From: a virus
Strand: one strand, 5' to 3'
DNA length: 25,530 nt
IMG/VR virus record: IMGVR_UViG_3300006224_000036
Span: 1 to 25,530 of that record
The translations under genes and the position numbers were made by a program. Within the stretch, counting starts at the first letter, position 1. The number at the start of each line of letters is the position of its first letter. This document shows positions 1-21,536 of the stretch, in pieces. A model generated the notes under the pieces. That model did not search any database and was not told where the DNA came from. It saw nothing but the letters and a program-made list of their open reading frames with translations.

Positions 1-3000
1 TGCATCTCGCGCACGAGCTTGTGCATCATACGCTCGGCTTGGAATTCCTCGTGCTGCGATGTGGCTGCGACGTCGCCCATGTAGCGGGAGAGATTGAACC
101 GGTTCTTCTCGACGCGCAGCTCATGGTTCAGCTCGTGCAAGATGACTTTGAGCAGGTTCTCCTGCTCCGCAGCAGTACCGGACACCGTGCCGTTGAGCAT
201 CATTTCCGCATTTGGCGAAACCGCAGCGGAGATGTAGATGGCATCGTCGAGGTCGTCGGGGTCAACGCCGAGCAGCGAAGCCCATCGAACGATTTGGTCC
301 TCGAATCCCGGTGCCTCATCCCAGAACTCGCGAGGCGGGATGTACCATCCCATGACCTCTTGACCGGGTGCGTAAAGCCGCCCTACGAAGTAGGGCACTA
401 CCCGAACCGGAGTTTGGTCCGTGATGATTTTGCCGAAATCGTCGGTGATGTACTTATCGACCTCGGGGACGATGTCCTTGATGCGGAATTCTTTCCAGTA
501 TTCCTCCGGGGGCAGGACGTCCACGGTGTCTCGGACGGTGGCATCGAACCGCTCCATGCCCGCAAGGACTTGGTCGGGGATTCTGCCGTCCTGCGCCGTA
601 TCGAGGAATTCGTCCCAGAACTGCGCGGTGCCGAACGCCTCGGGGTTCATGCCTACGGGGAACGGGAGACCGCTGGCGTAGGCGTAGCCGTTATCGACCA
701 GCCACTTGCCCGCCTCGTCCACGGTGTCGAATTCCTGAATGGTGCCGTCCACGTCACGGAGCGCGGCGAGCTTCCTGCCCTTGACCGCCTTGACGCGGTA
801 CTTGCCACTCTTCATCTGCACAGCGCGGTAGCCATCCACGTCGGGGATGACCGGTGGAGTGCCAAGAAGCTCCTTGTCCATCGCTGCGGTCACCGGACGT
901 TCCTCGATGACCTTGCGTGGCGCGAGGTTGATGAACGTGCCGCTCTCGTCCTGCGCGAATTTCGCGGGGTTGCGAAGAACGGGTTCCGCCGCTTCCCCTG
1001 CCTCGTCGGTCATGCGCCAGAAGTCGCGGAGGTCGGGGTTCTTCAGCTTCTCGTAGATGACTTTCCAGTCCCACATACCCGGCGAGATGATTTTGTCGGT
1101 GGTTTCGGTGATTGCCGATGGAGCAACGATGAATTCGAGCGGTCGAGACGGCTCGCTGTAAAGACGAAGCTCCTTCGGGTTCACCCACGCTGTCGGGATG
1201 TCGGTCCATCCGACCGGCTCGTCGGGGAACTGCGCACTCATGTCGTACTTGAACGGCGTGACGATTTCGCCGGGTTGCAACGGGAGGTCGTGCTGACCCT
1301 TCGCTTCGAGGCGGTACACCTCGACCAGCTCTTCGCCCTCGTCGTACATTTCGGGATTTCGGACGACGGTGACCGGTCCCCAATTGTCATTCAGCTCTTC
1401 AAACTTGTACGGATTGACGTTCGCCTCGAACTCGGATTGGTAGTCGTCGTACAAGTCATCTTCGGGATACGAACTGACGCCGTCGGTCCACTCGCCGTAC
1501 TCGTCGTCGTACTCGTAGCCCTGCCGCCGTGCCCATTCCTCGAACGTCGGCTCGTCAGCCCACTCGCCTTCGATGAAGTCGTCCGTCTCACGAGCGGGAC
1601 CTTCCCGCATGACGTCGTCGAAGGTGGTCGGCTCGTCACGGCTGGACAGCACACGTGCCCAGCGTTCGGCGGGAGCGGCAGGTTCGCCGATGACGGTCTC
1701 GTACTCGTGACCGTGCATCCCCCGCTTCGCGAGTGCCTCGAATTCGTCGTAGGTCTGGGTCCCGTTGACCACGTCGAGCAGCTCTTGGATGCCCGCTTCG
1801 TCGATTTCGGCTTTTGTCGCAACGGCTTCGCCCGGAATCTTTCCCGACACCTTCAGGGGAACGCCGTTCACGCCGAGCACCGGAGCGTTGCCGTAACGAA
1901 TTCGAGATTCGATTTGCTCCAGCTCTTGCGTGAGCTGTTCGTATTCCGAAACGGATTCCGGAGTTTGGTTCATCCCACGGAGACCGAGACCGGTAGGTTC
2001 GGTGTCCATAAGCTGCTTGTTCAGCTCTTCGATGCGGAGGCGGAGCTTGTGCATCTCTGCGCCGAACGCCCGCTTCTCGCCGATTGACAGCTCTTCCCCG
2101 GCTTCATCCACGCCGAAATCAATCTTCTGCTGGTACTGACCAATCTGCTCACGCAGCTTGTAGATTTGCTGCTGGATTCCAGCTTCGGACGAGATGGTCG
2201 CGGGGATGGGCGTGCCATCGGGCATCGTGTCGAGCTGCATCCCGATTTCGTCGAGACGGTCCTTGATTTCCTGACGACGGACGATGTCGTCCGTGCGAGG
2301 GCGTGGCTTCAGCGGGGTCGTATGCTGCGCCGCCATCACGCCTTCGGGGTTCGCGCCGGTGTGCCACGGACCGTAATTCATCTCTTCGAGAAGGAAGGTC
2401 CGCGCCTCGGCGGGCGTGTAGGTCTCGTACAGCTTCGCGTTGTAGATGGTGTAGTAGACGTCCTTCGGCATCGCCTTGCCGACCACGGGGTCGTAGACCA
2501 TCGTGGCGAGCTGCTCCTTCTGCGCAGCGGTAAGCTGCCCGAGCATCTCGTTCTCGTCGAACTTGGCGAGCAGGTCGGTGTCCACGTACTCGACCCATGC
2601 GTGAGCGTTCGGCGGGTTACCCGCACCTTGGATGGAGCCGTGGACGAGGATGCGGTTCGCCTCGTTCGCCGGGTCCTCCCACCCAATGTGTTTCGCCGAA
2701 AGCTCGTAGCACCGACCGAGCCGGTCCTCGAATCCCTCGGCGTGGCGGACCATCGTGAACTGACCGCCCTCTTCGATGACGTCGTCCGCCCCGGCAATCG
2801 GAATGTCGGGCGGTCGCTCAACGATGAGGTTCGCGGGTTCGACAGGTCGGTCCGAACCCCACTTCAGGACTTCGGTGGCGTGGGCGGGCTGCGTCCGTGG
2901 GATGACGACCTCTTGGGTCATGCCTTCCTCGGGCAACAGCTTGCCCGTGATGTCGAGCTTGGTAGCTTCGAGCTGTACCGCTTCTTTGCGACCGAGCGGC

Positions 3001-5408
3001 TGCTGCGTGAGCTGCTGCATCGTGCGCAGCTTGGTGTCACGGTCGATGCCGAGCACGCGGTCGGTCGAATTGAGATGTCGTTTCGAGGTTTCCTCGGCAG
3101 GACGGAGCGTGCCACGAGCGAAACGACCGGGCTTCTTCGGTCCGAGTAGCTGGTCGAGACCGACGCCGTACGCCTCTTCGGTGAATTGGGATAGCTTCTC
3201 GTACTCCTTGGTGGTGTTGCGCAACGGCGAGTAGCCGGGGACGTACCACCGAGCATCGAGACCGAACAGCGACGACCGCTCCAGTCCGAGGTCGCGCTGG
3301 GCTTCAGCGAGGTCATCGAATTGGCTCTTGAACATATGCAGAGCTTCGATGGCTTGGCTGATTTCATCGTCGGTCGCGTTGTGGTAGGTGCGGCTCGCTT
3401 CGAGGTCGCGCCGAACGATGTCGTCCATCTTCGCCCAACCGCGCTGATTCGCAGCGATGAGCTTCTGGCGGGCGACGGCGATTTTCTCGTCGGCGGCGAT
3501 GAACCGCTCCCACGCGCCCTTGCGACCACCAAGCTGCCGCAGAAGGCGGGTGCGCTCACCCGATGCCTGTGCGATTTCTTGGCGGAGCTGGCGGATGCGG
3601 ACGTAGGTCTGCTCGTAGATGCCGCCGCCACGGATGGGGTAGCCCTCTCGCAGCGCGTTGTCCGCCTTGATGGTCTCCATGTATTCCTGCAAGAGCTTGC
3701 GCTCTTCTTCGAGACCCTCGGTGATTTCACCGTTGAGCTTGCCCCGGTCGATTTCCTTATCCAGCCACGACTTGTAGGAACGCAGACCCTTCTTGGCGGT
3801 CGGCTGACCGGTGAATCCGTGGGCTGCTGCCTGTGTGTCGATGGTCGGCTTCAGCTCGGCGCGACGGGCGATGAGGGCTTCCTTGCGAGCCGCTTGCTCG
3901 GGGGTGAAGTAGATGCGCGGAGCTTCGTTGGACAGCTCGATGGTGCGTCGTGCGGCGGCGTCGGGAGCGGTATCGACGATGGAGATGTCGAACGGTTCAT
4001 CTACCGCCTGTCGCCCCACACCGGCGAGCTGTGTGGGCTGTGCGCCCTTCTGCTGGTAGCGAGTGATGTCACGAAGCTCATCCTGCGCCGAAGCGAGTCG
4101 GTCCTTGGAGCGAGCGAGCAGGTCATCGACCCGCTCGATTTCTTGGACAGCGGCTTCGATTTTCCCGACCTCGTCGGGGTCCTCGATACCCTCGATGAGA
4201 ACGCGGTACGCGGCTTGCCGGGAGTCAACGGCGGAGTCGATGTCGCGAAACGCCCAATAGATGTCGGGATATTCGTCGAGGAAAGACTCACCGTATGCCT
4301 TGGTGACCCACATCCGGAGCTTCTCATTCGGGATTTTGGACATGAGAACCTGTCCGAATTCCGAACCGAGCATCTCTGCCATCGCCTTGCGCCCTTGCGC
4401 GTTGCGGCGTGCGCCCTTGATGAAGGCGTTGATGGCTTCGTTGCCCTCGCGCATGATGCCGACGGCTTCTCCGGGCATATCGCCCATACCGAATGTCTGT
4501 TCGACCCACTCCGAGATGATGGGGACGCCACGGAGACCCTGCCGAGCAGTCACCTGCCCGTACTCGTTGGTCACCGACCGACCTTTGAGAGCGAATCCCA
4601 ACGCGGAGAGACGCTCTTCGCCGCCGAGCGGGATGCCCATCCACTTGATGCCACCGGTGCCGTACGCCTTGTAGATGTCGGTCATCAATCGGCGACCTTC
4701 GTCGGCAGCGTTGGTGACGTCACCCGCTTCGCGCAGCGCGAACGCCTTCAGCCGACCGGCATCGTCGAAATGACCGAGCGCACGCAGCTCATCCAGCTTC
4801 GGGGTGATTTTGTTGACCATCGCGGCAAGCTCGTCGGCGTTCTTGGCGACGACATCCGCACCGTGGACCGTGGCATCGAGAGCGTCGTCGGTGAAGCCGA
4901 GCAGCACCTTAGCGACCTCATCCACGTTGTCCCCGTACAGAGCGAGACCGTGGAGCAGCGACTTGCCCGAGCTTTTCGCAAGCGCGGAGAAGCCCGTCGT
5001 GATGTAGGTGAGCGGGTCGGTCGCAATCGAGACGACGAGACCGCCGAGCATCTGCGCCCACTTGTTCTCGACGCCGAGGTCGGCAAGGATGTCCGACCCC
5101 TCCACACGACGCTCACCGCGAAGAGACTTGCCCATCTCTTCCCACGGGCTGACGTCGGGGTCCTCGACAGGATTCACGACGTTGTGAACAAGTGAACGAA
5201 CACCTGTTCCCAGCACATCGAGCGGACCGAACAGCCGCTCCAGCGTCCCCGGCTTCTGCGAGGTATCGGGGACCGGCTGGTCTACCGCCTGAAGCTGCTG
5301 CGTCATGTGCTGGTTCGCCTGAATCGTCTTGCTGATGTCATCGACCCCGAGGACCTGCTGGGTCTTGAAGAAGGGTGAGGACGAATTGCTGAAAAACGGC
5401 GTTGCCAT
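1..5408 (-). CDS. Giant ejected/polyvalent virion protein with peptidase-like domains, 3' end beyond window
   Basis: One frame runs without a stop from the ATG at 5408 (AAGGAGG, 7 bases upstream) to base 1, giving at least 1802 residues. Near the start, LGGLVVSIATDPLTYITTGF (121-140) is a membrane-like patch with the DPLTY motif seen in large phage internal proteins. Long charged coiled-coil stretches lie at about 430-520, 555-630 and 1083-1135. Around 895-985, GRCYELSAKHI (C900), NAHAWVEY (H936) and VYDPVVG (D973) form a papain/transglutaminase-like triad. Around 1365-1425, VYRLEAKG ... LEFIVAP weakly recalls ADP-ribosyltransferases. At 1758-1762, HELNH is a zinc-peptidase motif, with E1788 or E1792 as possible third ligand. 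Such many-domain proteins are packed in the head and injected ('polyvalent proteins'); they may modify the host or open the envelope. The C-terminus is unseen, so the protein is probably over 2000 residues. Confidence 0.85.
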   Translation of the reverse strand, partial: MATPFFSNSSSPFFKTQQVLGVDDISKTIQANQHMTQQLQAVDQPVPDTSQKPGTLERLFGPLDVLGTGVRSLVHNVVNPVEDPDVSPWEEMGKSLRGERRVEGSDILADLGVENKWAQMLGGLVVSIATDPLTYITTGFSALAKSSGKSLLHGLALYGDNVDEVAKVLLGFTDDALDATVHGADVVAKNADELAAMVNKITPKLDELRALGHFDDAGRLKAFALREAGDVTNAADEGRRLMTDIYKAYGTGGIKWMGIPLGGEERLSALGFALKGRSVTNEYGQVTARQGLRGVPIISEWVEQTFGMGDMPGEAVGIMREGNEAINAFIKGARRNAQGRKAMAEMLGSEFGQVLMSKIPNEKLRMWVTKAYGESFLDEYPDIYWAFRDIDSAVDSRQAAYRVLIEGIEDPDEVGKIEAAVQEIERVDDLLARSKDRLASAQDELRDITRYQQKGAQPTQLAGVGRQAVDEPFDISIVDTAPDAAARRTIELSNEAPRIYFTPEQAARKEALIARRAELKPTIDTQAAAHGFTGQPTAKKGLRSYKSWLDKEIDRGKLNGEITEGLEEERKLLQEYMETIKADNALREGYPIRGGGIYEQTYVRIRQLRQEIAQASGERTRLLRQLGGRKGAWERFIAADEKIAVARQKLIAANQRGWAKMDDIVRRDLEASRTYHNATDDEISQAIEALHMFKSQFDDLAEAQRDLGLERSSLFGLDARWYVPGYSPLRNTTKEYEKLSQFTEEAYGVGLDQLLGPKKPGRFARGTLRPAEETSKRHLNSTDRVLGIDRDTKLRTMQQLTQQPLGRKEAVQLEATKLDITGKLLPEEGMTQEVVIPRTQPAHATEVLKWGSDRPVEPANLIVERPPDIPIAGADDVIEEGGQFTMVRHAEGFEDRLGRCYELSAKHIGWEDPANEANRILVHGSIQGAGNPPNAHAWVEYVDTDLLAKFDENEMLGQLTAAQKEQLATMVYDPVVGKAMPKDVYYTIYNAKLYETYTPAEARTFLLEEMNYGPWHTGANPEGVMAAQHTTPLKPRPRTDDIVRRQEIKDRLDEIGMQLDTMPDGTPIPATISSEAGIQQQIYKLREQIGQYQQKIDFGVDEAGEELSIGEKRAFGAEMHKLRLRIEELNKQLMDTEPTGLGLRGMNQTPESVSEYEQLTQELEQIESRIRYGNAPVLGVNGVPLKVSGKIPGEAVATKAEIDEAGIQELLDVVNGTQTYDEFEALAKRGMHGHEYETVIGEPAAPAERWARVLSSRDEPTTFDDVMREGPARETDDFIEGEWADEPTFEEWARRQGYEYDDEYGEWTDGVSSYPEDDLYDDYQSEFEANVNPYKFEELNDNWGPVTVVRNPEMYDEGEELVEVYRLEAKGQHDLPLQPGEIVTPFKYDMSAQFPDEPVGWTDIPTAWVNPKELRLYSEPSRPLEFIVAPSAITETTDKIISPGMWDWKVIYEKLKNPDLRDFWRMTDEAGEAAEPVLRNPAKFAQDESGTFINLAPRKVIEERPVTAAMDKELLGTPPVIPDVDGYRAVQMKSGKYRVKAVKGRKLAALRDVDGTIQEFDTVDEAGKWLVDNGYAYASGLPFPVGMNPEAFGTAQFWDEFLDTAQDGRIPDQVLAGMERFDATVRDTVDVLPPEEYWKEFRIKDIVPEVDKYITDDFGKIITDQTPVRVVPYFVGRLYAPGQEVMGWYIPPREFWDEAPGFEDQIVRWASLLGVDPDDLDDAIYISAAVSPNAEMMLNGTVSGTAAEQENLLKVILHELNHELRVEKNRFNLSRYMGDVAATSQHEEFQAERMMHKLVREM
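123..137 (-). other. HELNH zincin motif in the giant protein
   Basis: Residues 1758-1762 read H-E-L-N-H within ILHELNHELR, 25 residues before HEEFQAERMM, where E1788 or E1792 could be the third zinc ligand. The hydrophobic residues before the motif (VIL) fit an active-site helix. The domain is near the window edge, so its full extent is unknown. Confidence 0.55.
2490..2711 (-). other. Cysteine-peptidase-like domain core in the giant protein
   Basis: Codons for C900 (2709-2711), H936 (2601-2603) and D973 (2490-2492) lie in GRCYELS, NAHAWVEY and VYDPVVG. The spacing C-35-H-36-D, HAWVE and YDP are hallmarks of papain/transglutaminase-like folds. ILVHGSIQ precedes the His and VYYTIYNAKLYETYTPAEA follows the Asp. 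Activity as protease, amidase or acyltransferase is undecided. Confidence 0.6.
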
Positions 5409-5426
5409 GTCCGTCCTCCTTCACGT

Positions 5427-9617: not shown

Positions 9618-10232
9618 TCACCACGTCTGCCGAGGCAGCGTGCTCATGTCCGCCGTCCTCGTCCGAATCGTCTGCCACTCGGCATTTTGCAGGTCGTCGT
9701 TGTAGAGCGCGGTGAGACGGTCAGCCGCCATGTAGTCACCGAGCTGCTCGTACAGACGCGCCTTCACGTACTTGGTGAGGATGAAGTCGTACTGGCTGTC
9801 GAACGCCGTAGTGCCCGATGTCTCGGTGACCTCTGCCGGGAGACACGTCCGGAAGAAACGGATGGTTCCCGAGACGTCAGGCGTGGGGTACAGCCACAGG
9901 GCACCGTCGGAGACGAGGTAGCGGTCCGGGTCTCCCGTTGCCGGTTGCTGCTGGTAGTACGTGAAGTCCATCTCGTTCAGGCGGGTGAGGGGTTCATCGT
10001 CCCCATTGAAGTAGACCGCCTTCACGTCGATGGTGCCCGTGGGAAGCGAGTAGCTCGCCTGTCCTGCGAGAGCACCGGCGTACTCTTCGTCCTCCCACGG
10101 GCGTACCTTTTTCGCGAAATCGCGGGCAGCGTCGTTGTAGTGACGCAGGATGGAAGCATCGGAGAAAATCGACGCTACCGGTTCCTCGACGTCCTCGCGG
10201 ATTCCAGAAAGAACGGTGTTCCAAGCAGTCAT
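9618..10232 (-). CDS. Head-tail adaptor (connector) protein
   Basis: The protein has 204 residues; its ATG overlaps the fibre stop by one base. The helical N-terminus (IREDVEEPVASIFSDASILRHYNDAARDFAKK) is followed by a beta part: YSLPTGTIDVKAVYFNGDDEPLTRLNEMDF, WLYPTPDVSGTIRFF, and then two helices (YDFILTKYVKARLYEQLGDYMAADRLTALYNDDL). This order, with an S-x-L-P and a YPTP motif, fits the podoviral adaptor family (SU10/P22-gp4 type) that sits below the portal and joins the tail. The gene order, adaptor followed by propeller tail protein, agrees. A simple alternative is another tail-completion protein. No enzymatic motif is present; the lysozyme activity known for P22 gp4 is not indicated. 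Confidence 0.72.
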   Translation of the reverse strand: MTAWNTVLSGIREDVEEPVASIFSDASILRHYNDAARDFAKKVRPWEDEEYAGALAGQASYSLPTGTIDVKAVYFNGDDEPLTRLNEMDFTYYQQQPATGDPDRYLVSDGALWLYPTPDVSGTIRFFRTCLPAEVTETSGTTAFDSQYDFILTKYVKARLYEQLGDYMAADRLTALYNDDLQNAEWQTIRTRTADMSTLPRQTW

Positions 10233-13078
10233 CAGTCTGTCCTTTCAGTCCACGAGATTTCGTCGGAATCTCGTTCGGTCCACGTACCGGCTACGGAGCC
10301 ACGTTCGAGCCACGACGAACCTCCGCCGGGGACGACTTCAGCCCATGCCGCAGTAACCGGTTGCTGCTCGGTCCACGACCGTACATCGGCACCACGCTCG
10401 TTCCAGCCCAGCCACACTTCGGGCAGGTACACCGTCAGGGTGTCGGTGACCACCACGTTGTCCGAGACGCTGCGCTTCGGCTGCGGTAGGACATTGGCGG
10501 TATCACGGACAACGATGTCGTCCGAAACGGAACGGAGAATCGGACCGCTGATGTTGAGCGTCTCTCGGACGACGACATTGTCGGTGACGCTGCGGACGAT
10601 GTCGGGGCGCACCTGAACGGCTTCTGAAACGCGGATTTGGTCGGTGACGGTGATGCAGACCGGCAGACTGACCGGTTCTTCAACGTGCCCAATCGAGAAG
10701 TCATCAATCCAGACGGTCTTGCCCGCGTTGGACGCATCGGTGGCGTACGTGCCGATGAGGAATTGGACGCTGCCCATGTAGGACGAAGCGACCTCGAAGC
10801 CGTACCACACGAAATTCCACTTGCCGCCCTCGACGAACTGGCGATGGAGTGCCTCGGGTCGAGTAAGACTCCACGTACCGTCGGGAGCGAGGTAGGTATA
10901 GGCGTTGACACCGTCCCATACCGCAAGGTCAACGTACGTGTCGGTCGCGCAATAGACCCACGCGCCCATGTAGTGTCGGACACCGGCGTCGAAGATGCAG
11001 ATGTCCCACCAATCGCTGTTGTACCCGCCATAGCTACCCGAGCCGTCGTAGATGATGTGCAGCGAGCATCCCCACGTACCATGACCGAAATCCGTCGCGA
11101 TACCGAGGTCCGTGGTGCCGTCGAACACGCCAGCGTAGCCCATGCCGTTGTAGACACTCCGCGTGTCTATCGACGCCTCGCGGATGGGGTCTTGGACGGT
11201 GACGGTGTCGGTGACAGAGACCTTGATGTCTCCGACCTTGATGGATGGCGTGTCGGAAACGGTGACCGTATCGCTCACCGACCGCTGGATGTCCAGACTT
11301 TCCGGACTACCGGACGCTGTATCCGAAATTCGGATTTGGTCGGTGATGTCCGCTTCGACCGGATGCCATACGTACGAGTAGTAGAGGATGTTCGATTCGT
11401 GGGTGTCGTCCCCCGAATCGTCCGAGACCATGATGAGGTACTCGCCGTACTTCCACGGCACGATAGGGAGATTCGTGTCGATGACGCTGCTTGTGCCGGG
11501 TCCCAAAGGACTTCCGGGCACGTTCGCCCACGTCACGACCCATGAGCTTCCGTCATGGAAACGGTGCTGGACGTAGATGAGGGTCTCGTTCGTGGACATA
11601 TTCGTCCACTCGACCGTGATGGTGTTGTTGTCGTTGTACGTCGCCCGGAAATTCGTTGGGTCGAACGGGCTGTATTGCAGATTCGGCTCACGGACGACGA
11701 CGTTGTCGGAAACGCTGCGCTCGATGGTCGTTCCCACGCCACCGGTAAGCTCGACGGTGACCTCGTCACGGACCACGATGGACTCGGTGTAGACCTGCTC
11801 ACCGAGCGCGTCATGCACGGTGACCGTATCGGAGACCGAGACCGGGATGGAGAGCTGCCGGTCCGCGCTGTCCGAAACCGTCAAACCGTCAGAAACCGAG
11901 ACCGGAATCGACAAAACACGGCTCACGGTGTCGGAGACTGTGAGCGTATCCGTGATGTTCGCGACCACATTCAGGCGCACCGTGACCGTATCCGTGACGG
12001 AAACGGTGTCGGTGACCGATTTGTGATGCTCTGGCACCCGGACCGCGACGGTTTCCGAAATCCGGATTTGGTCGGTGACCGAGGGTACGAGGGTCACACG
12101 CACTTCGACGGCATCCGACACGTTCGTCGTGTCCGTCACCGTCTTTTCGACCTCGGGCACATCCCCGTCAACGACCTCGGCGGTCGTCCCGTCGGTATCC
12201 GAGATTCGGATTTGGTCGGTGACCGACTTCACGATGTCGAGACGGACCGTGACCGTGTCCGAGATGGTCGCCGTGTTGGTCAGGGCGGGCACGTTGATGG
12301 GCGTGACGTTGCGGGAGACCGTCTCCGAGACTCGGATTTGGTCCGTGACATCGACCGACACGGGGAACACGTTGGTCGAGACCGTTTCCGAGATACGGAT
12401 TTGGTCGGTGATGTTCGCGGTCGCCGCAGCAGGACCGGCGGTGGACGAGATGATGCCGGTGAACTGCGCGTGGTTCTGCGACGCGCTGCCGGTGACGGTC
12501 GTGTTGCCGACGGTGCCCGCCGTGGTGTCGTGACCCGTGATGACGACGAGACCGCCGCCGTTGCCGACGTTGCGCATATTGTTGATGCGGATGGTCGGGC
12601 TGGAGAGGTCGCTGTTCGACGGGCTGCTCCACCACGTCGTCGATGACGTGTCCGCGCCAGCCGTGGCGACGGCGATGACCAAGCTGTTGTCCGCCGGTGT
12701 GGTGCCGCCGGGGATGGTCGCGTTGGTCGCGGTCGTCTCGCTGGTGTCGGTGTAGTAGAACGGGTTGCCCGAGCTGATGGGCATATCTTGGATGGTGATG
12801 GTGCGACCGACGAAGTGGTTTCCGGAGGTCAGCGTCACCTCGTAGGTAGAGTCACCCGACTGCCACCAGCGGTAGAACACGTAGACCTTCGTGTAACCGG
12901 CGGCTTCCGCGTAGGAATCCGCGAGCGTGCAACCGGCGACCGTGAACGCCGACTCCGTACCGTCCGTCTCGAAGAACAGCAGGACGAGGTCGCCCGTCGT
13001 GGTGCCCGTGCCTGTTCCGATGTATGCCGACGTGGTGCCGTACTGCAACGTGCCGACTGAACGCACTCCGAATGCCAT
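10232..13078 (-). CDS. Large multidomain repeat fibre/virion protein
   Basis: This 948-residue protein starts with ATG after a one-base gap. Domains by eye: 1-210, a globular beta domain seen in phage virion proteins (GTTTGDLVLLFFETDG, VYVFYRWWQSGDSTYEVTL); 223-466, about twelve V-T-D-x-V/I-x-V/I-S-D/E-T repeats; 471-570, an Fn3-like domain (NFRATYNDNNTITVEWT); 578-636, three repeats; 637-800, a jelly-roll-like, Trp/Tyr-rich domain (GGYNSDWWDICIFDAG, KTVWIDDFSIGHV) that could bind carbohydrate; 811-888, four repeats; 889-948, six Trp motifs of the W-x-E type. Fn3 and jelly-roll domains in phage fibres are known to bind cell-surface glycans. It likely forms a tail fibre or head decoration. Its stop overlaps the adaptor start (TGATG). 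No endosialidase or lyase motif and no chaperone domain was seen. Confidence 0.68.
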   Translation of the reverse strand: MAFGVRSVGTLQYGTTSAYIGTGTGTTTGDLVLLFFETDGTESAFTVAGCTLADSYAEAAGYTKVYVFYRWWQSGDSTYEVTLTSGNHFVGRTITIQDMPISSGNPFYYTDTSETTATNATIPGGTTPADNSLVIAVATAGADTSSTTWWSSPSNSDLSSPTIRINNMRNVGNGGGLVVITGHDTTAGTVGNTTVTGSASQNHAQFTGIISSTAGPAAATANITDQIRISETVSTNVFPVSVDVTDQIRVSETVSRNVTPINVPALTNTATISDTVTVRLDIVKSVTDQIRISDTDGTTAEVVDGDVPEVEKTVTDTTNVSDAVEVRVTLVPSVTDQIRISETVAVRVPEHHKSVTDTVSVTDTVTVRLNVVANITDTLTVSDTVSRVLSIPVSVSDGLTVSDSADRQLSIPVSVSDTVTVHDALGEQVYTESIVVRDEVTVELTGGVGTTIERSVSDNVVVREPNLQYSPFDPTNFRATYNDNNTITVEWTNMSTNETLIYVQHRFHDGSSWVVTWANVPGSPLGPGTSSVIDTNLPIVPWKYGEYLIMVSDDSGDDTHESNILYYSYVWHPVEADITDQIRISDTASGSPESLDIQRSVSDTVTVSDTPSIKVGDIKVSVTDTVTVQDPIREASIDTRSVYNGMGYAGVFDGTTDLGIATDFGHGTWGCSLHIIYDGSGSYGGYNSDWWDICIFDAGVRHYMGAWVYCATDTYVDLAVWDGVNAYTYLAPDGTWSLTRPEALHRQFVEGGKWNFVWYGFEVASSYMGSVQFLIGTYATDASNAGKTVWIDDFSIGHVEEPVSLPVCITVTDQIRVSEAVQVRPDIVRSVTDNVVVRETLNISGPILRSVSDDIVVRDTANVLPQPKRSVSDNVVVTDTLTVYLPEVWLGWNERGADVRSWTEQQPVTAAWAEVVPGGGSSWLERGSVAGTWTERDSDEISWTERTD
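10235..10414 (-). repeat. Trp-rich W-x-E motif tail of the large fibre
   Basis: Residues 889-948 contain six short motifs spaced 8-13 residues apart: GWNERG, SWTEQ, AWAEV, SWLERG, TWTERD and SWTERT. Repeated WTEQ/WTER tails are familiar in phage virion proteins; their job (oligomerisation or attachment) is not established from this sequence. Confidence 0.75.
10415..10648 (-). repeat. Third repeat array of the large fibre (4 units)
   Basis: Residues about 811-888, after the jelly-roll-like domain: VTDQIRVSEA, VTDNVVVRET, VSDDIVVRDT and VSDNVVVTDT. The VVVR/VVVT variant is specific to this end of the gene and unit 12. Confidence 0.8.
11171..11347 (-). repeat. Second repeat array of the large fibre (3 units)
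   Basis: Residues about 578-636, between the Fn3-like and jelly-roll-like domains: ITDQIRISDT, VSDTVTVSDT and VTDTVTVQDP. Confidence 0.8.
11681..12412 (-). repeat. Main repeat array of the large fibre (about 12 units)
   Basis: Residues 223-466. Units of 20-28 residues begin [VI][TS]D. The form T-D-Q-I-R-I/V-S-E/D occurs four times here and twice more in the later arrays; its DNA core GATTTGGTC[GC]GTGA is nearly identical between copies. The linker PEHHKS (residues 349-354) is also found in the short paralogue. Confidence 0.85.
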
Positions 13079-14671: not shown

Positions 14672-15454
14672 CTACTTCGCGTTCGGAATCACGTTGCTCG
14701 GCGGGAACATCTCCCCGTCGATGTTCACGTGGCGGCAGAAGATGTTCGTATCCACCAAGAACGGGTACTTTTTCCTTCCGATGCTCTTCCATCCTGCCCT
14801 CTCAATCACGTTCTGCTCCATGACACGGGTACACCAATTCAGGTCACTCGTGCCGGTCGCTGATGCCCATCCCCCGCTCTCGGGGTCGAACCACGTGCCC
14901 GAGGGCTGGTCGAACACCCGCCGGGTGATGGTGCCCGAGACGAGGTACTCGGGAGATTCCTGCCACATGAGCTGAAGAATCTTCCCGTTGATGAGAAGGC
15001 ACCCGGTCGGTACACCATCCGCCCACACCTTGTCCCCGAGTTTGAAGTCGTCGTAGTAGCTCGTGCCGCGACCGCGATATACCAGCGGCTCGGGCGGCAG
15101 CGACTTGGTGTAGTACAGCCCCGAGACGATGGGGATGGATTCGTCGCGGATGTACTCGTTGAAGCGGATGAACGTGTCGGGCGGGGGGCACGTGTCATCT
15201 TCGATGAGCAGCAGCCAGTCCCAATTCCCCTCCACGACCTGCTTCACGATGAGGTTCTGCGCGTCGGCGACGCCGTAGCCCAGCGGGGCGAAGGTGTCGT
15301 ACGCCTGAAGCATATGACCCATCGACCAATTGCACGGGATGATTTGCCCGTAACGGGCGAGCACCCACTCGATTCTCACGGTCCCTCGCGTCGGGGTGCC
15401 CACGAACAGGCGGTTCCCGATGTCGTTCTTCTTCGGATTCTTCACGAGCGTCAC
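14672..15454 (-). CDS. GT-A-like glycosyltransferase
   Basis: The GTG at 15454 is preferred: AGGGGGT lies 6 bases upstream, as in its neighbours, and it overlaps the RmlB stop as GTGA. An ATG at 15460 is in frame but has no room for that SD. From the GTG the protein has 260 residues. It opens with LFVGTPTRGTVRIEWVLA, then QNLIVKQVVEGNWDWLLLIEDDTCPP, where EDD (85-87) is the likely DxD metal-binding motif. IVSGLYYTKSLPPEPLVYRGRG, GVPTGCLLINGKIL and the late PFLVDTNIFCRHVN with its His follow the plan of phage and bacterial GT-A proteins annotated as glycosyltransferases. It is soluble. It is the last sugar gene before the fibre genes, and a 60-base gap follows. Confidence 0.75.
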   Translation of the reverse strand: MTLVKNPKKNDIGNRLFVGTPTRGTVRIEWVLARYGQIIPCNWSMGHMLQAYDTFAPLGYGVADAQNLIVKQVVEGNWDWLLLIEDDTCPPPDTFIRFNEYIRDESIPIVSGLYYTKSLPPEPLVYRGRGTSYYDDFKLGDKVWADGVPTGCLLINGKILQLMWQESPEYLVSGTITRRVFDQPSGTWFDPESGGWASATGTSDLNWCTRVMEQNVIERAGWKSIGRKKYPFLVDTNIFCRHVNIDGEMFPPSNVIPNAK

Positions 15455-16440
15455 AGCCATACCCCCTGATGTTCGACCGTCCACAGAACGGTCTTGATGA
15501 GCGAATCGTCGAAATCGACCGGGTACTCGTAGCCCGAATTCAAGAGCTTCGAGGAATCCAGCGCGTAGCGCAGGTCGTGACCCGGACGCTCCGAATGGAA
15601 ATCGACGATTTGGTACTTGAATCCCTTATCGAGAATCGCCGCGATTTTGCAAGCCAAATCCAGATTCGAGATTTCCTCGACCCCGGCGATGTTCCACTCG
15701 TCGTATCCCGCATATCCGAGGTTGATTATGTGCAGGAGTGCATCAGCGAGGTTGCGGGCGTGCAGGTACATCCGCGACCCGCTCTCGCCGTCCGCTGTTC
15801 CGTGAATCGGAATTTGCTTTCCGTCGAGGATATAGCGGATGCACTTGGGGACGAATTTCTCGAAATGCTGACGCTCGCCGATGATGTTCATCGTGTGCGT
15901 CGTGATGACCGGGACCTTGTACGTGTTCGAGTACGCGATGCCGATGGCTTCCTGCGCACTCTTCGACGCTGCGTACGGGTTCGAGGGACGGTGCCACTCG
16001 AATTCGCGAAACGCATATCCGTCGGGTGCCGGTCCGTACACCTCGTCCGTGCTGAAATTCACGAACAGACGAAGCTCGGGATGCCGCCTCGCGTAATCGA
16101 GGATGTGCGTCGTGGCATCCACGTTGTTGCGGATGAACCACGCAGGGTCGGAGATTGAGCGGTCAACGTGGGACTCGGCGGCGAGGTGGAGGATGAAGTC
16201 CACCTCGCCGACCTCGGCATCCACCGCGACGGGAATCGGCAACGTCAGGTCGAGCGAGTAGAAGCTCACCCTGTCCTTGTTGCTCTCCCAAATCTCGATG
16301 TCGGAAAGCCGGTCCTGCGTCAGCGACGCATATCCCAGCTTGTCGAAGATGACGATGTCCCAATCCGTGTTCTTCAGCAGATGCTCGACGAGGTGCGAAC
16401 CGACGAAACCCCGACCGCCGGTGACGACCGCCCTAGCCAT
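15451..16440 (-). CDS. rmlB: dTDP-glucose 4,6-dehydratase-like enzyme (RmlB type)
   Basis: This 329-residue protein starts at ATG 16440; longer frames upstream only add an Arg/Ser-rich shadow of the methyltransferase gene. The SDR motifs fit RmlB closely: GGRGFVG (8-14) for NAD, HLAAESHVDRSI (85-96), NFSTDEVYG with the catalytic D132-E133, and Y156-A-A-S-K160 in PSNPYAASK. R-x-x-N-I-style substrate residues appear as HTMNIIGERQHFEKFVPKCI. The normal reaction turns dTDP-glucose into dTDP-4-keto-6-deoxyglucose, the entry to rhamnose and other deoxysugars; GDP- or UDP-sugar relatives cannot be excluded. RmlA, RmlC and RmlD partners are not in this window, so the host or other phage genes must supply them. 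Its stop overlaps the next gene's start. Confidence 0.85.
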   Translation of the reverse strand: MARAVVTGGRGFVGSHLVEHLLKNTDWDIVIFDKLGYASLTQDRLSDIEIWESNKDRVSFYSLDLTLPIPVAVDAEVGEVDFILHLAAESHVDRSISDPAWFIRNNVDATTHILDYARRHPELRLFVNFSTDEVYGPAPDGYAFREFEWHRPSNPYAASKSAQEAIGIAYSNTYKVPVITTHTMNIIGERQHFEKFVPKCIRYILDGKQIPIHGTADGESGSRMYLHARNLADALLHIINLGYAGYDEWNIAGVEEISNLDLACKIAAILDKGFKYQIVDFHSERPGHDLRYALDSSKLLNSGYEYPVDFDDSLIKTVLWTVEHQGVWL

Positions 16441-16948
16441 AGCTCTTGTCCCAAGCACGCTTTTCGAGGGCGACCTCGATGTTGCCGCCTTCCATGTACG
16501 TGTTCGCGACAATCTTCCACGGCTTCGGCTTGTAGATGCGCCACAGCAGTCCCTTGGCGTTCGGCTCGATGGGGTCGAAGTACGCCCACGTGACCTCATT
16601 GACCGGGTTCACGTGGGTCGGGTCCTGCACGAACCCCTTCGAGTAAGCGTACGGCGCGGAGATGAGCATCTTGCCGCCCACCTCTAGGATTCGCCAGCAC
16701 TCGTCCATGAATTTGAGGAACCCGCCCTTGGCAGGGTTGATGTGCTCCACGAGATGCGAGCACAGAATCAGCTCGCAGCACTCGTCAGGCAGCACCCACG
16801 GGTACTCTTCGAGGTCTTGGACGATGTCCACACCCTTCACCGGACGGACGTCCACACCGACGAAGCCCTGCTGCTTGTTCTCGCCGCAGCCCAAGTCGAT
16901 GCGGACGCCACTCGTCCGATGCTTGTCGAGAATCTCTTTGACGTCCAA
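16433..16948 (-). CDS. SAM-dependent class I methyltransferase (second)
   Basis: This 171-residue protein starts at TTG (16948) next to an AGGGGGT site. The core reads VRIDLGCGENKQQGFVGVDV (15-34, motif I and the ribose-binding acidic residue), DLEEYPWVLPDECCELILCSHLVEHI (about 45-70), and RILEVGGKMLISAPYAYSKG, followed by DPTHVNPVNEVTW. This short form with SH-x-x-EH and DPTHVN matches a group of small phage- and bacterium-encoded methyltransferases found beside glycosyltransferases. It lacks a large lid domain, so the acceptor may be small or held by a partner. It shares little with the methyltransferase at 17466-18065 outside the motifs, so it is not a recent duplicate. It overlaps the next gene by 8 bases. 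Confidence 0.82.
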   Translation of the reverse strand: MDVKEILDKHRTSGVRIDLGCGENKQQGFVGVDVRPVKGVDIVQDLEEYPWVLPDECCELILCSHLVEHINPAKGGFLKFMDECWRILEVGGKMLISAPYAYSKGFVQDPTHVNPVNEVTWAYFDPIEPNAKGLLWRIYKPKPWKIVANTYMEGGNIEVALEKRAWDKSYG

Positions 16949-16952
16949 TGCT

Positions 16953-16959
16953 ACCCCCT
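16953..16959 (-). promoter_or_regulatory. Shine-Dalgarno site supporting a TTG start
   Basis: AGGGGGT ends 4 bases before TTG at 16948. No ATG or GTG is found in frame between this site and the methyltransferase motif I, so the TTG start is the best available. Confidence 0.55.
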
Positions 16960-16966
16960 AAGTGGT

Positions 16967-17476
16967 CTACGCCGTGGCGAACGCGAGGTTGTAGGTCACG
17001 TTCACGGCTTGGTTGTTGGTGCAGGTTGCGGCGGTGAAGCTCTGTGCGGCGAACAGCGTGCCGGTCGCCGAGCTGTTGAAGAGACCGACCTGCCCGATGC
17101 GGCAGGACGAGCCGGTGACGTCGGTGTTCCAGCTCGCAGCCCACGTCGCGTAGATGGCGAGCGACTTCGCGCTCGTCGAGGTCGAGAACGTGGTGCGGAC
17201 GTAGCTGCCGTTCGTCTTGGTGATTTCGCTGACCATCGCGGTCTGCGACGCGGAGACGGCGACCGTATCCGAACCGAGGGCGATGTGGGTGAGCGAACCG
17301 GCGTCGGCAGAGCTGCCGAGTGCCTTCACCATGTACTGCGTGAAGCCGTTGTCCACGACGATGTTCTTCTGCCAGCCCGAGTCGTGGGCGACAGTACCGT
17401 CCGGGTCAACGACGTGGAGACGGAACATCCCTCGAATGGCGATGCCGTCCCCGCAACCCTTCTTCTTACGAGGCAT
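16967..17476 (-). CDS. Putative small virion protein inside the sugar cassette
   Basis: The protein has 169 residues and an ATG start 4 bases after GGAGGAAG; it overlaps the methyltransferase end by 11 bases. The first 12 residues are very basic (MPRKKKGCGDG). The rest is beta-rich, with many Ser, Thr, Ala: DNGFTQYMVKAL, LTHIALGSDTVAVSASQTAMVSEI, IGQVGLFNSSATGTLFAAQSF and a C-terminal NVTYNLAFATA. The pattern (ALG-S-D-x-V-x-x-x-x-x-Q-T ... QVGLFN ... G-x-L-x-A-x-x-F) resembles a widespread class of small phage tail or baseplate-associated proteins with no firm name. It is not a sugar enzyme, so its place between two methyltransferases is odd; it could be a fibre or decoration protein and even the acceptor of the glycan. 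That is inference. Confidence 0.6.
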   Translation of the reverse strand: MPRKKKGCGDGIAIRGMFRLHVVDPDGTVAHDSGWQKNIVVDNGFTQYMVKALGSSADAGSLTHIALGSDTVAVSASQTAMVSEITKTNGSYVRTTFSTSTSAKSLAIYATWAASWNTDVTGSSCRIGQVGLFNSSATGTLFAAQSFTAATCTNNQAVNVTYNLAFATA

Positions 17477-18065
17477 CTGCTTCCTCCTTCTTGTCTTTAC
17501 GTGCGACTGCGATAGACGACACCGGATACCGTGTGTCCATCTGACCCAACCAGCCCTCCGTCAGCGGATGGACCGGAACCCCCGACTTCGTGAACTGGAC
17601 GTGGTCCCTCCATTCCTGTGTGAACGTCTTGCCGTTGGTCTCCAGATGGACGCCTACAAGCCCCGCCTGTGACACGCACAGGTCGAGTGCTCTCACATGA
17701 ACGCCCCACAAGCTCTCGCCATCCTCGGCGTAAGCGTTCGGGGCGGAGAGAAGGAGATAACCCCCCGGCTTCAGTACACGAGCGCACTCCTTGACCACCA
17801 CCATCGGGAAGATGCACAGATGGAGCAGGTCGGAGCACAGGACGGTGTCGTAGGTCTCGTCGTCCTGCGGAATCTCGTGCGCGTCACCTTCGATGTCGCC
17901 GATGGGTCGGAAGTCCAGACCGACCCACTCGCACTCGGGAAACAGCCGCTTGTAGGGCTTGCGACCGCATCCCACGTCGAGGACCTTGCCTTTGACGAAT
18001 TCGTTGCCGTTGGCGGCGAGGAACGCCCGCATCGGCATCTCTTGGATGGTCATCGGGTCAGCCAT
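17466..18065 (-). CDS. SAM-dependent class I methyltransferase
   Basis: This 199-residue protein starts 8 bases inside the previous gene, after GGGAGGTG. It has the standard AdoMet fold: motif I KVLDVGCGRKPY (27-38), WVGLDF with the acidic residue for the ribose (D51), GDAHEIPQDDETYDTVLCSDLLHL (motifs II-III, about 60-83), and RVLKPGGYLLLSAPNAYAE (motif V area). This is the Methyltransf_11 type, acting on small molecules or sugars. The C-terminal part (WRDHVQFTKSGVPVHPLTEGW) probably forms the substrate lid. In this cassette O- or N-methylation of a sugar or glycan end is a plausible job; capping a glycan chain is one possibility. The substrate is unknown. A host-interference role is less likely given the position. 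Confidence 0.82.
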   Translation of the reverse strand: MADPMTIQEMPMRAFLAANGNEFVKGKVLDVGCGRKPYKRLFPECEWVGLDFRPIGDIEGDAHEIPQDDETYDTVLCSDLLHLCIFPMVVVKECARVLKPGGYLLLSAPNAYAEDGESLWGVHVRALDLCVSQAGLVGVHLETNGKTFTQEWRDHVQFTKSGVPVHPLTEGWLGQMDTRYPVSSIAVARKDKKEEADAS

Positions 18066-18849
18066 CGAGCACCTCCCTCAATTCCAGAAGGAAACGCTCG
18101 GTGGAATTCATCTCGTGCCAGTACGCCGCCGCTTCCAAATCCGGTTCGGTGTATTTGAGCGTTTCGCGGATTGCGACAGCGATTGCGATGAAATCGTCGT
18201 GCCGCACGCGCCTCGCATAGTCCAGCTCGTGCGTCACCACCGCACGGCGACCGGCTTCCATGAATTCGCGTGGGCTTGCGGCGGAACCGTCATGGGTCGT
18301 GAGACGGATGCACATCGTCGATTCGGCGACGAGCTGCTTCATCATCGCTTCGTCGTACTGCCCGAATTGATACCCCACGAGTCTGACATCGGGCATCTCC
18401 TTGGCGAGCCAGTCCCCGACGGCTTGGAACATATCGTTGCCGTACTTGTAGGGGTTGGTGCCGAGGTAGCACGCAATCTGCGGGGTCTCGGGGAACGGGG
18501 TGACGTCGAAGTGGTGACGGGTCGCCCACATCACCGTCGTCGCATCCACGCCCTTGTCCCACAGCTCGCGTCTCAGTCCGTCCGAGTCGCAGACGTGAAT
18601 CGCCTCGGGAATGGAAGTGATGTCCTCCAGATGGAGCACGTCGCTCCCGCACCAATGGATGATGCGACGTTTGGCGCGAGAAGTCCGTTCGAGCGTCGCA
18701 TCGTACGAAGGTGGGTCGTACATTCCGACGATGTGGCAGTCGTTACAGTCTCCGACGTACCCGGCGTTGACGAGTTCGTATCCGAGGGCATCGGCGCACA
18801 CCCTTCCGAAGAAATCCATCATGGGCGGAGCATAGACGACGTTCCTCAT
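18058..18849 (-). CDS. GT-B-fold glycosyltransferase-like protein
   Basis: This 263-residue protein starts at an ATG overlapping the SDR stop (ATGA), with GAGGGAG just upstream. Features of a GT-B donor-binding half are visible: RRIIHWCGSDVLHL (about 61-74), AIHVCDSDGLRREL, then IACYLGTNPYKYGNDMF, PDVRLVGYQFG, MCIRLTTHDGSAASPREFMEAGRRAVV. The last resembles the ...E-F-M..G...V loop of GT4 enzymes, with E195 as the likely donor-binding glutamate. The protein is short for the family (usual 350-400), and its N-terminal acceptor half is reduced to about 60 residues, so it may be a minimal or partner-dependent transferase. It overlaps the next gene by 8 bases. Similar proteins occur in phage and bacterial glycan clusters; the activity is inferred. 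Confidence 0.62.
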   Translation of the reverse strand: MRNVVYAPPMMDFFGRVCADALGYELVNAGYVGDCNDCHIVGMYDPPSYDATLERTSRAKRRIIHWCGSDVLHLEDITSIPEAIHVCDSDGLRRELWDKGVDATTVMWATRHHFDVTPFPETPQIACYLGTNPYKYGNDMFQAVGDWLAKEMPDVRLVGYQFGQYDEAMMKQLVAESTMCIRLTTHDGSAASPREFMEAGRRAVVTHELDYARRVRHDDFIAIAVAIRETLKYTEPDLEAAAYWHEMNSTERFLLELREVLDG

Positions 18850-19730
18850 CGCTCCCTCATCCATTCGTAGGTGCGGCGAACGCCCTCTTCGAGCGTCACC
18901 TTCGGCTCGAAGCCGAGCGAGCGGATGTGGGAGAAGTCGGCTTTCTTGACCTCCGAGACGAGGAACGCCGGTGGGTTGGTCACCACATAGCTCCCGGTGC
19001 CCACGGTGTCGATGACGATTTTGGCGCAATCCTCCATCGTGCGGTACTCGTCGGTCCCGATGGAGAACGCCTTGTAGTCCTGCCAGTTCGGGGGTGTCGC
19101 CAGAACGAGGCGCAGCCCGTCGATGAAGTCGTCCACGTGGCACCATGACCGCACGCAGCCCCGGTGCGCCTTGATGATGTCGCCCTTCATCGCGGTGTCG
19201 ATGAAGTTCGAGACCGCAGACCTGAATTCGCCGTTGGGGACCTCGTGCTTGCCGTAGACCATGAACGGGCGAATCGAGTACGCCCGGATAGCCCCCAGCT
19301 CGACGTAGTGCTTCACCACGCCCTCGGCAGCGAGTTTGGTCAGTCCGTAGATGCCGTTCTGTTCAAGGATGTCCGGTTTCCCGAAAACGGAATTGTGCCC
19401 GTACACCTCGGACGTGGAGAAATTGATGAGCCAGCATCCCGCCTGATGACACGCGTTCACGACGTTATACGTGCCCTCGCAGTTCGAGCGGAACGACGTC
19501 AGCGGGTCGCTTTCGCCGGTGAGCCGTCCGACCTGTGCCGCCATGTGGATGACGACATCGGGACGCCTTGCGGCGATGAAACGCTGGAGGAACGGACCGT
19601 TGCAGACGTCGTGCTGCTGTTCTGGCTCGTCGAGGATGTCGTAGACACTAACGCGGTGCCCGTCGTCGATGAGCGCGGGCACAAGGGACTGACCGATGAC
19701 ACCTCTGCCACCGGTGACGACTATTCTCAT
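18846..19730 (-). CDS. NAD-dependent sugar epimerase/dehydratase (extended SDR)
   Basis: The protein has 294 residues and an ATG start with AAGGGGGT 6 bases upstream. It has the extended short-chain dehydrogenase pattern: the NAD-binding GGRGVIG (7-13), an acidic residue after the second strand (YDILDEP), HMAAQVGRL, STSEVYG (105-111) and the catalytic Y128-G-L-T-K132. A later block, GCVRSWCHVDDFIDGLRLVL, matches the C-terminal substrate domain with its HVDD motif. Such enzymes act on nucleotide-sugars in the cytoplasm (4-epimerases, 4,6-dehydratases, 4-reductases). STSEVYG, rather than STDEVYG, argues against a 4,6-dehydratase; an epimerase or GDP-fucose-synthase-like reductase is more likely, but the exact reaction is not decided. 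Its stop overlaps the next start by ATGA. Confidence 0.82.
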   Translation of the reverse strand: MRIVVTGGRGVIGQSLVPALIDDGHRVSVYDILDEPEQQHDVCNGPFLQRFIAARRPDVVIHMAAQVGRLTGESDPLTSFRSNCEGTYNVVNACHQAGCWLINFSTSEVYGHNSVFGKPDILEQNGIYGLTKLAAEGVVKHYVELGAIRAYSIRPFMVYGKHEVPNGEFRSAVSNFIDTAMKGDIIKAHRGCVRSWCHVDDFIDGLRLVLATPPNWQDYKAFSIGTDEYRTMEDCAKIVIDTVGTGSYVVTNPPAFLVSEVKKADFSHIRSLGFEPKVTLEEGVRRTYEWMRER

Positions 19731-19734
19731 TTCA

Positions 19735-20475
19735 CTACCCCCTTGGAATTCTGTTCTCTTCGTCGATGTACGGGCGCAGGAAATCGCGCACTTCCTGTCC
19801 GATGAGCGGGCGTTCCTCACCTCCGGTCGCCGACTCGCTGCTCCCGTGCTGGCGGTACTTGTAGAGCGGATTCGCTCCGAGGTAGACGACGCGGGGCTTC
19901 TCCAGAATCCAGTTCATCACCGTCGCGCCATCCATGAATTTCTTCGTGTGCTTGAATTCGTGCATCCGCAGCTTGCGGTCGCGGACCCATTTCCCCGAAA
20001 GCCCCGCGAACAGGGTCACCGAGACGCCGGTGATTTCGTACATCACGCGGACCTGCTGCTTGGTGTCGGTGGGCATCCAATGGAGCTGATTCATGCCCAT
20101 GTCGAGCTGCCCGTCCTCGCCGACGTGGTGCAGGTCGGCGAACGCCCAATCCGCATCCTCCGGGATGACCTGCGCGAGACGCTCGGCGGCGGTCGGATAG
20201 AGCATATCGTCGGCGGAAAGCGGGATGATGATGTCGGTCGGCTGTCGAAGCAGGGATTCCCATCCCCATTTCGCGCTTCCCGAATTCCCGGCGTGGCGGA
20301 CGAGCTTCACCTCTTTGGGGAGGTGCAAGAGCACTTCTTTCGTCTCGGGGTCGTCCGATGCGTCGTCGAACACGACGACACGCGCCTCGTGGGTCTGATT
20401 CAGCGCGGACTCCACAGCGTCAGGCAAGAAGCGTCCGAGGTTGTAATTGATGATTCCGATGGTCACGTGGGTCAT
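19735..20475 (-). CDS. GT-A glycosyltransferase (GT2-like)
   Basis: This 246-residue protein starts at the ATG that overlaps the previous stop (ATGA), with AAAAGG upstream. The N-terminus is a typical GT2 Rossmann-like half: VTIGIINYNLGRFLPDAVESAL, then VVVFDDASDDPET (about 33-45), where the aspartates bind the nucleotide. The DxD-like metal-binding motif is SADDMLYP (about 87-94). Downstream are FAGLSGKW, MDGATVMNWIL with a possible catalytic Asp, and VVYLGANPLYKYRQHGSSES, the usual end of the catalytic core. No membrane segment is present, so the enzyme is soluble, unlike many lipid-linked GT2 enzymes. It likely adds one sugar to an acceptor made by the neighbouring enzymes. Donor and acceptor cannot be told from the sequence. 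Confidence 0.82.
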   Translation of the reverse strand: MTHVTIGIINYNLGRFLPDAVESALNQTHEARVVVFDDASDDPETKEVLLHLPKEVKLVRHAGNSGSAKWGWESLLRQPTDIIIPLSADDMLYPTAAERLAQVIPEDADWAFADLHHVGEDGQLDMGMNQLHWMPTDTKQQVRVMYEITGVSVTLFAGLSGKWVRDRKLRMHEFKHTKKFMDGATVMNWILEKPRVVYLGANPLYKYRQHGSSESATGGEERPLIGQEVRDFLRPYIDEENRIPRG

Positions 20476-21464
20476 GTCAGCACCTTTTCGTACAGCTCGA
20501 CGACCGGGGCGATGTGGTAGCTCATCGTATAGCGGTAACGCATGAGCCGGACATCGGTCCGGAATTGCTTCGCCGGTGGCAGGTGCTTCATTTGGCTGAA
20601 ATCGTCGAGGTAAACCCCCAAACCAAGTTCGCACACCGATTTGAGCAGCGGATTGTTCAATGCCACGACGGGGATACCGGCGGCGAGGTACTCATACGCC
20701 TTGTTCGGGCTGGAGTGCTCCCATGCGTCGCACGGCTGCAACGTGCCCGAGAACCCCCAATCGTGCTGCGCGAGCCGGTGCGTCAGCAGCCGGTATTCGA
20801 GAACGGTGGGATGCTTCGTCCCTGTGCCGTAATCCACGCCGCCCCCGCCGGGATAGTAGTGGAAGTCGTTCCCCAGAAAATCGGCGAGCGGCGACAGGTC
20901 TCGCCATGCGTGCTTCGCGCCTCGCTTCTCCATACCGCCCGCATACACCACTCCCCCGAGATGGGGCAGTAGCTTGCGTTCGACAAGCGTGGACGAGCTG
21001 GCGTAGTTACCGACGCACGCATACGGCTTCCCCTCGATGTCGAATCCCTTGGAGATGGCGAAAGTACGCTGTTGCTCCGTGACGAACACGAAGGCGTCCG
21101 CAGCCGCGTAGGACTCCGCTTCCATGATGAAATTCGGGTCCTCCGGATGCGGGGGACGAGCCGAGGTTACGTCATGGACGTTGAAGATGATGGGGCGGTC
21201 GTCAATCTCGCGGATGTAGGGCACGGTCCAATTCGGCTCGTTGTGGATGTGTATCAGCTCGCCCGGAAGCTCGTGGACCGCTTTCGCCACATCGTCCCGC
21301 GTCCCGCTCTTGCGGGTGACGATTCGCTCGTAGACATCGGTGAATTGCGGTGGGAGCTGGCGTCCGACGACGCTGTGCCCCCACCCATTCTCTTTGAGTG
21401 CCTCGGCTATCTTGCCCGCACGTACGCACGGGTAGGAACCGGACACCATGACGGCATGACGCAT
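20472..21464 (-). CDS. GT-B glycosyltransferase (GT4-like)
   Basis: The protein has 330 residues. The ATG at 21464 is chosen: AGGGGGT lies 6 bases upstream, while an earlier in-frame start at 21527 would fall within the hairpin and add a non-conserved Pro/Gly-rich stretch. The fold looks like two Rossmann halves: N-terminal MRHAVMVSGSYP and HIHNEPNW, then NVHDVTSARPPHP, FVFVTEQQ, and a C-terminal donor half starting VVYAGGMEKRGAKHAW. The diagnostic motif is SSPNKAYEYLAAGIPVV (about 251-267), the nucleotide-sugar binding loop of GT4 enzymes, where the Glu of Y-E-Y-L contacts the donor. It probably transfers an activated sugar in the host cytoplasm. Its stop overlaps the next start (ATGA). The substrate is unknown; the location suggests virion or surface-glycan modification. 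Confidence 0.8.
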   Translation of the reverse strand: MRHAVMVSGSYPCVRAGKIAEALKENGWGHSVVGRQLPPQFTDVYERIVTRKSGTRDDVAKAVHELPGELIHIHNEPNWTVPYIREIDDRPIIFNVHDVTSARPPHPEDPNFIMEAESYAAADAFVFVTEQQRTFAISKGFDIEGKPYACVGNYASSSTLVERKLLPHLGGVVYAGGMEKRGAKHAWRDLSPLADFLGNDFHYYPGGGGVDYGTGTKHPTVLEYRLLTHRLAQHDWGFSGTLQPCDAWEHSSPNKAYEYLAAGIPVVALNNPLLKSVCELGLGVYLDDFSQMKHLPPAKQFRTDVRLMRYRYTMSYHIAPVVELYEKVLT

Positions 21465-21481
21465 CTGTTTACCCCCTAGAG

Positions 21482-21526
21482 TGCCGGGGCAGAGAAGTGG
21501 GGGGTAGTCGCTCCCCTGCCCCGGCA
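21482..21526 (-). terminator. Perfect 11-bp inverted repeat between coat and first sugar gene
   Basis: TGCCGGGGCAG (21482-21492) and CTGCCCCGGCA (21516-21526) are exact inverse complements around a 23-base loop. The hairpin starts 10 bases after the coat stop codon and ends 17 bases before the next ATG. On the minus strand the bases after it (CTCTAGGGGGTAAACAG) hold no T-run, so it is not a textbook intrinsic terminator. It may be an mRNA-stabilising stem, an attenuator or a processing site. The loop holds a C-run complementary to the downstream SD AGGGGGT. Confidence 0.6.
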
Positions 21527-21536
21527 AAAGGAAATG

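Follow-up and report, generated by a model that had tools for sequence, protein, structure and literature searches.

The stretch of DNA analysed here, referred to as the window, is a virus record of 25,530 bases. Its minus strand carries, in this order, genes for a portal protein and a capsid protein, a cassette of sugar and glycosyltransferase genes, genes for an SU10-type adaptor and for two proteins of 875 and 514 residues, and a giant open reading frame (ORF). Both the portal and the adaptor are of SU10 type: The portal gene (24059-25530, minus strand, continuing past the window) matches SU10_portal (PF23899, E 2e-14) and the adaptor gene (9618-10232, minus strand) matches SU10_adaptor (PF24175, E 2e-17). 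The capsid gene (21537-22451, minus strand) matches PF25209 at E 3e-5, slightly below the cut-off of this family. Among the genes scanned, none was recognised as coding for a nozzle or needle protein. The region separating the capsid gene from the adaptor gene (14672-21527, minus strand) encodes two NAD-dependent sugar epimerases/dehydratases, glycosyltransferases and a methyltransferase, which suggests a set of glycan-modification genes within the virion module. The gene adjoining that of the adaptor (10232-13078, minus strand) specifies a 948-aa protein that matches phrog_12240 (E 3e-9, unknown function), and DNA comparison with a second contig, L002, revealed short internal repeats in it. 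L002 is the only other contig found for this virus and is 99.9% identical to the window. Upstream, it completes the portal gene, giving a frame of 674 aa, and contributes a frame for a large terminase. It ends at window base 8819, and no extension of the giant protein past base 1 was obtained.

The giant gene (3-5408, minus strand) is the last gene of the virion cluster on the contig and is located on the same strand as the portal, capsid and adaptor genes. As proposed in an initial annotation of this DNA, its frame is uninterrupted: It starts with an ATG at 5408 and is stop-free to the contig end, yielding a protein of at least 1802 residues, with the 3' end of the gene beyond the contig. A ribosome binding site, AGGAGG (5415-5420, minus strand), is found six bases ahead of the ATG, and an upstream stop precedes the start of the ORF by 18 bases. 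The third-position GC content is 0.75-0.79 over the entire length, and such uniformity is the pattern expected for one real gene. The residues highlighted in the same annotation, C900, H936, D973 and HELNH at 1758-1762, are all present at these positions in the translation. C900 is the sole cysteine among the 1802 sequenced residues.

Database searches with the giant protein returned little. No full-length relative was found by whole-protein tblastn against 50,697 phage records or by an IMG/VR scan, and no significant match was obtained in Pfam, NCBIfam or PADLOC or among PDB sequences. In the sequenced part, neither a lysozyme or transglycosylase family nor an RNA polymerase domain was found. 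Near the N-terminus, a hydrophobic 'DPLTY' segment (residues 83-201; 4806-5162, minus strand) matches phrog_36598 (E 8e-4) and weakly resembles a 1106-aa protein of podovirus MW202795 (E 0.05). MW202795 has distantly related portal and adaptor genes and carries the gene for its 1106-aa protein in the place of the giant gene. Near its end, this protein reads 'FHVRN ... YGALTKFEKSVMKRGMPFYTYVRK'; a counterpart in the window would fall beyond base 1. An ADP-ribosyltransferase-like domain was considered for residues 1362-1433 (1110-1325, minus strand) due to a by-eye likeness (vYR...pGeiVT...EFIV) and is not claimed, as tblastn of phage records did not support it.

Residues 887-1018 (2355-2750, minus strand) constitute a Cys-His-Asp domain with the predicted nucleophile C900 (codon 2709-2711), H936 (codon 2601-2603) and D973 (codon 2490-2492), all on the minus strand. 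About 24 residues inserted between His and Asp (2505-2576, minus strand) are absent from most relatives. The domain belongs to a family represented at 13 further loci of phage, plasmid and bacterial origin, although no Pfam, NCBIfam or PHROG family covers these residues. The homologues compared match the window sequence with E values from 7e-17 to 0.008, and a family profile built without the window scores the giant protein at 87 bits. Both values show that the region is not a product of chance. Most members were collected from public virus and genome contigs with a DNA pattern encoding RCYE...HAWV (L003-L008, L010, L011, L019, L028, L030 and L033, with L030 and L033 being alike). Since this pattern fixes C, Y, E, H, A, W and V, the invariance of these residues in pattern-found members proves nothing. 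An LVHG stretch, the acidic residue (Asp, or Glu in two pattern-found members), a Tyr and a closing GPW lie outside the pattern and are common to most or all members. Furthermore, two relatives were found independently of it, L087 by profile search (E 1e-15) and L096, a Polaromonas plasmid protein, by tblastn (E 1e-6). Both retain Cys, His and Asp. Pattern matches in L015, L023, L029 and others were rejected as chance. The window domain, L006, L028 and L007 used as queries yielded no match in phage records, and profile searches extended to other phyla recovered true members rarely or not at all. The family profile also matches bacterial proteins with a canonical transglutaminase-core pattern (L088, L094), and one member reaches Pfam Transglut_core at E 0.003, below the curated cut-off of that family. 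As separate observations, a stretch of L006 (2527-2997) and other members of the Cys-domain family weakly match (E 0.03-0.04) Fil of phage 186 (PF10893, phrog_816), which is a cell-division inhibitor, and related transglutaminase-like Cys-His-Asp sequences are found in frames of 2183, 7609 and 7145 aa (L091, L092 and L093, respectively), in genomes of the same phylum as the Myxococcales contig L019.

In phages, genes for this domain are often located beside virion genes: near a head maturation protease gene (L003), ahead of a gene of head-morphogenesis (MuF) type (L007), downstream of a minor head protein gene (L010), near a tail sheath gene (L030) and near head protein genes (L006). Solo copies of about 115 residues are found on one contig each from Nitrospira and a myxobacterium and on a Polaromonas plasmid. 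As the plasmid and bacterial contigs have no obvious virion genes, the domain is not tied to virions. It represents a mobile module, frequently retained by phages alongside virion genes, and this would be compatible with packaging.

An AlphaFold model based on 11 sequences has a core pLDDT of about 90. In the model, C900 lies on a helix, inside it and not clearly at its start, whereas H936 and D973 are placed on strands. This corresponds to the layout of the transglutaminase-like/papain-like superfamily, in which Cys resides on a core helix and His followed by Asp, Glu, Asn or Gln on later strands (PMC10318531). The best fold matches in the PDB are LapG and human NTAQ1 (Z 6.8 each), followed by SpvD, PeiW/PeiP, protein-glutaminase, SseI, MOA, ComA and staphopains. 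Most of these neighbours belong to the same superfamily, with every Z below 8. Foldseek by itself gave a best E of 0.13 and none below 0.1, and the viral structure library contained no significant match to the model. Taken together, the PDB neighbours of the confident model, the profile matches and the contact with Transglut_core assign the region as a small transglutaminase-like domain. The superfamily comprises peptidases, amidases, deamidases and transglutaminases (PMC10318531), and sequence alone cannot choose among these activities. The model makes an amide hydrolase likely. The initial annotation had called the domain peptidase-like: A real hydrolase-type domain is indeed present, but peptidase is just one option, because the nearest folds also include deamidases and amidohydrolases.

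The second site is located at the end of the sequenced chain. Residues 1630-1802 (3-521, minus strand) form a probable zincin domain, cut by the contig end, with the HELNH motif at 123-137 and EFQAE, the probable helix of the Glu ligand (residues 1788-1792), at 33-47, both on the minus strand. As a sequence motif, HELNH-x25-EFQAE is a gluzincin signature, and its form and spacing match those of many phage zincins collected by pattern. Against a profile of 25 phage zincins, the region scored 35.4 (probability 79%), and none of 150 motif-keeping shuffles reached this value (best 31.8). Because a related motif served to pick the templates, and because shuffling also breaks local hydrophobic patterns, this result is to be read as support and not as proof. 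Pattern scans returned many phage zincins, none of them a close relative, and no homologue of the region was found. A single-sequence model failed (pLDDT 39); for this reason, the zincin is graded as probable only. At this low confidence, the model places three strands before HELNH, which lies in a helix, and EFQAE in the next helix. This order corresponds to that of the zincin core, which consists of an N-terminal helix, three strands and two helices (PMC5512222). Thus, the proposed HExxH peptidase-like domain is upheld as a probable zincin of the HExxH-E type by motif, profile and shuffles. Its predicted setting, with HELNH helical and the Glu on the helix that comes next, is taken from a model too weak to count as a fold. 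Alternatively, HELNH could be a chance motif in a helical region, leaving the Cys-His-Asp domain as the only real one. When the giant protein is shuffled at constant composition, HExxH alone arises in 2.6% of cases, and both the low pLDDT and the missing homologues would be compatible with chance. By contrast, HExxH followed after 15-45 residues by ExxA[DE], a looser form of the observed signature, occurs in only 0.15% of the shuffles, and the zincin profile score also draws on residues beyond the motif. A chance motif is considered unlikely.

The initial annotation described the giant protein as a virion protein of polyvalent type, and the neighbouring portal, capsid and adaptor genes support a product of the virion module. 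The position in the virion cluster, the Cys domain and the probable zincin together give it the look of a polypeptide with several enzymes that would enter the host along with the phage DNA. The best explanation, with a probability of about 50%, is a polyvalent-type ejection (internal virion) protein of a short-tailed phage resembling SU10, composed of a carrier part and enzyme domains embedded behind it. In SU10, the portal (gp6), the capsid protein (gp9) and the adaptor (gp11) are followed in numbering by the ejection proteins gp20-24 (PMC9509320), and by analogy the location of the giant gene after portal, capsid and adaptor fits this explanation. The sequence similarities to MW202795 and phrog_36598 (E 0.05 and 8e-4) are weak and count against it. 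The N-terminal part would act as carrier. The protein would be packaged in the head and then ejected with the DNA, and the zincin might cut the long chain before or after ejection. In the host, the Cys-His-Asp domain might target an amide bond, either in the peptide backbone or in a side chain, of a protein from the host or the phage, candidate reactions being proteolysis, isopeptide cleavage and deamidation of Gln or Asn. A more specific proposal, possible but doubtful, is that the domain with its RCYE, HAW, DP and GPW motifs is an uncatalogued injected effector that modifies host proteins by deamidation or by cleavage of N-terminal or isopeptide amide bonds, and that the ejected chain also includes a zincin for its own processing. 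Few of the multi-enzyme proteins that phages inject have been studied, although their action is predicted for the first minutes of infection. A small, well-delimited Cys domain with a lone cysteine would offer a simple handle for probing the effect on the host.

Two further explanations concern the task of these sites. The Cys-His-Asp domain might open the cell wall at DNA entry by hydrolysing an amide linkage in the wall peptide, analogous to transglycosylase domains of other ejection proteins that cut the wall sugar chain. PeiW and PeiP, phage wall endoisopeptidases (PMC2989375), are among the fold matches, SU10 gp20 has been described with transglycosylase activity against peptidoglycan (PMC9509320), and no lysozyme or transglycosylase family was found in the sequenced part. 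However, PeiW and PeiP rank below LapG and NTAQ1, and small solo relatives in phage head loci, on a plasmid and on bacterial contigs represent an improbable setting for an entry enzyme. A wall-opening function is considered unlikely. It is equally hard to credit that both sites only process the phage's own virion proteins in the prohead and that the giant protein is no effector: Although DdrB of P1, which bears a zincin, undergoes cleavage prior to packaging (PMC5512222) and relatives of the Cys domain adjoin head maturation genes, L003 already has a head maturation protease beside its Cys-domain gene, and for the solo copies on the plasmid and the bacterial contigs there is no virion on which they could act.

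An ejected multi-enzyme protein can be compared with several known systems. The likeness to gp20-24 of SU10 (Kuravirus), virion proteins missing after genome release (PMC9509320), is drawn from gene position, and the sequenced residues of the giant protein revealed no counterpart to the transglycosylase activity of gp20. The N4 virion RNA polymerase is also a giant virion protein that reaches the host and includes an HExxH zincin domain (PMC5512222). It differs by its RNA polymerase domain, as no such domain was found in the sequenced part. LapG, NTAQ1, protein-glutaminase and PeiW/PeiP share with the Cys domain a layout in which a helix bears the Cys and the strands after it bear His and Asp, and a link to Transglut_core exists at the sequence level. 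In contrast to these enzymes, the Cys domain comprises only about 110-130 residues, carries RCYE, LVHG and C-terminal GPW motifs and is embedded in a giant phage protein.

The closest parallel is provided by the polyvalent proteins (Iyer et al., 2017, PMC5512222). Their catalogue includes four peptidase superfamilies, zincin, assemblin-like, DD and LonC (PMC5512222). A transglutaminase-like Cys-His-Asp domain is not among these four, and the terms 'papain-like', 'transglutaminase' and 'cysteine' are absent from the main text of that paper. In the open-licence literature, no paper was found that ties transglutaminase-like domains to polyvalent or virion phage proteins. The combination of such a domain with a probable zincin is absent from the published polyvalent catalogue. 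In other respects, the giant protein resembles its members: It is a very long chain encoded among late virion genes and probably contains two unrelated enzyme domains, of which the Cys domain is firm and the zincin probable. Zincin is the commonest domain of polyvalent proteins, for which Iyer et al. proposed zincin self-processing (PMC5512222), and the giant protein probably has one.
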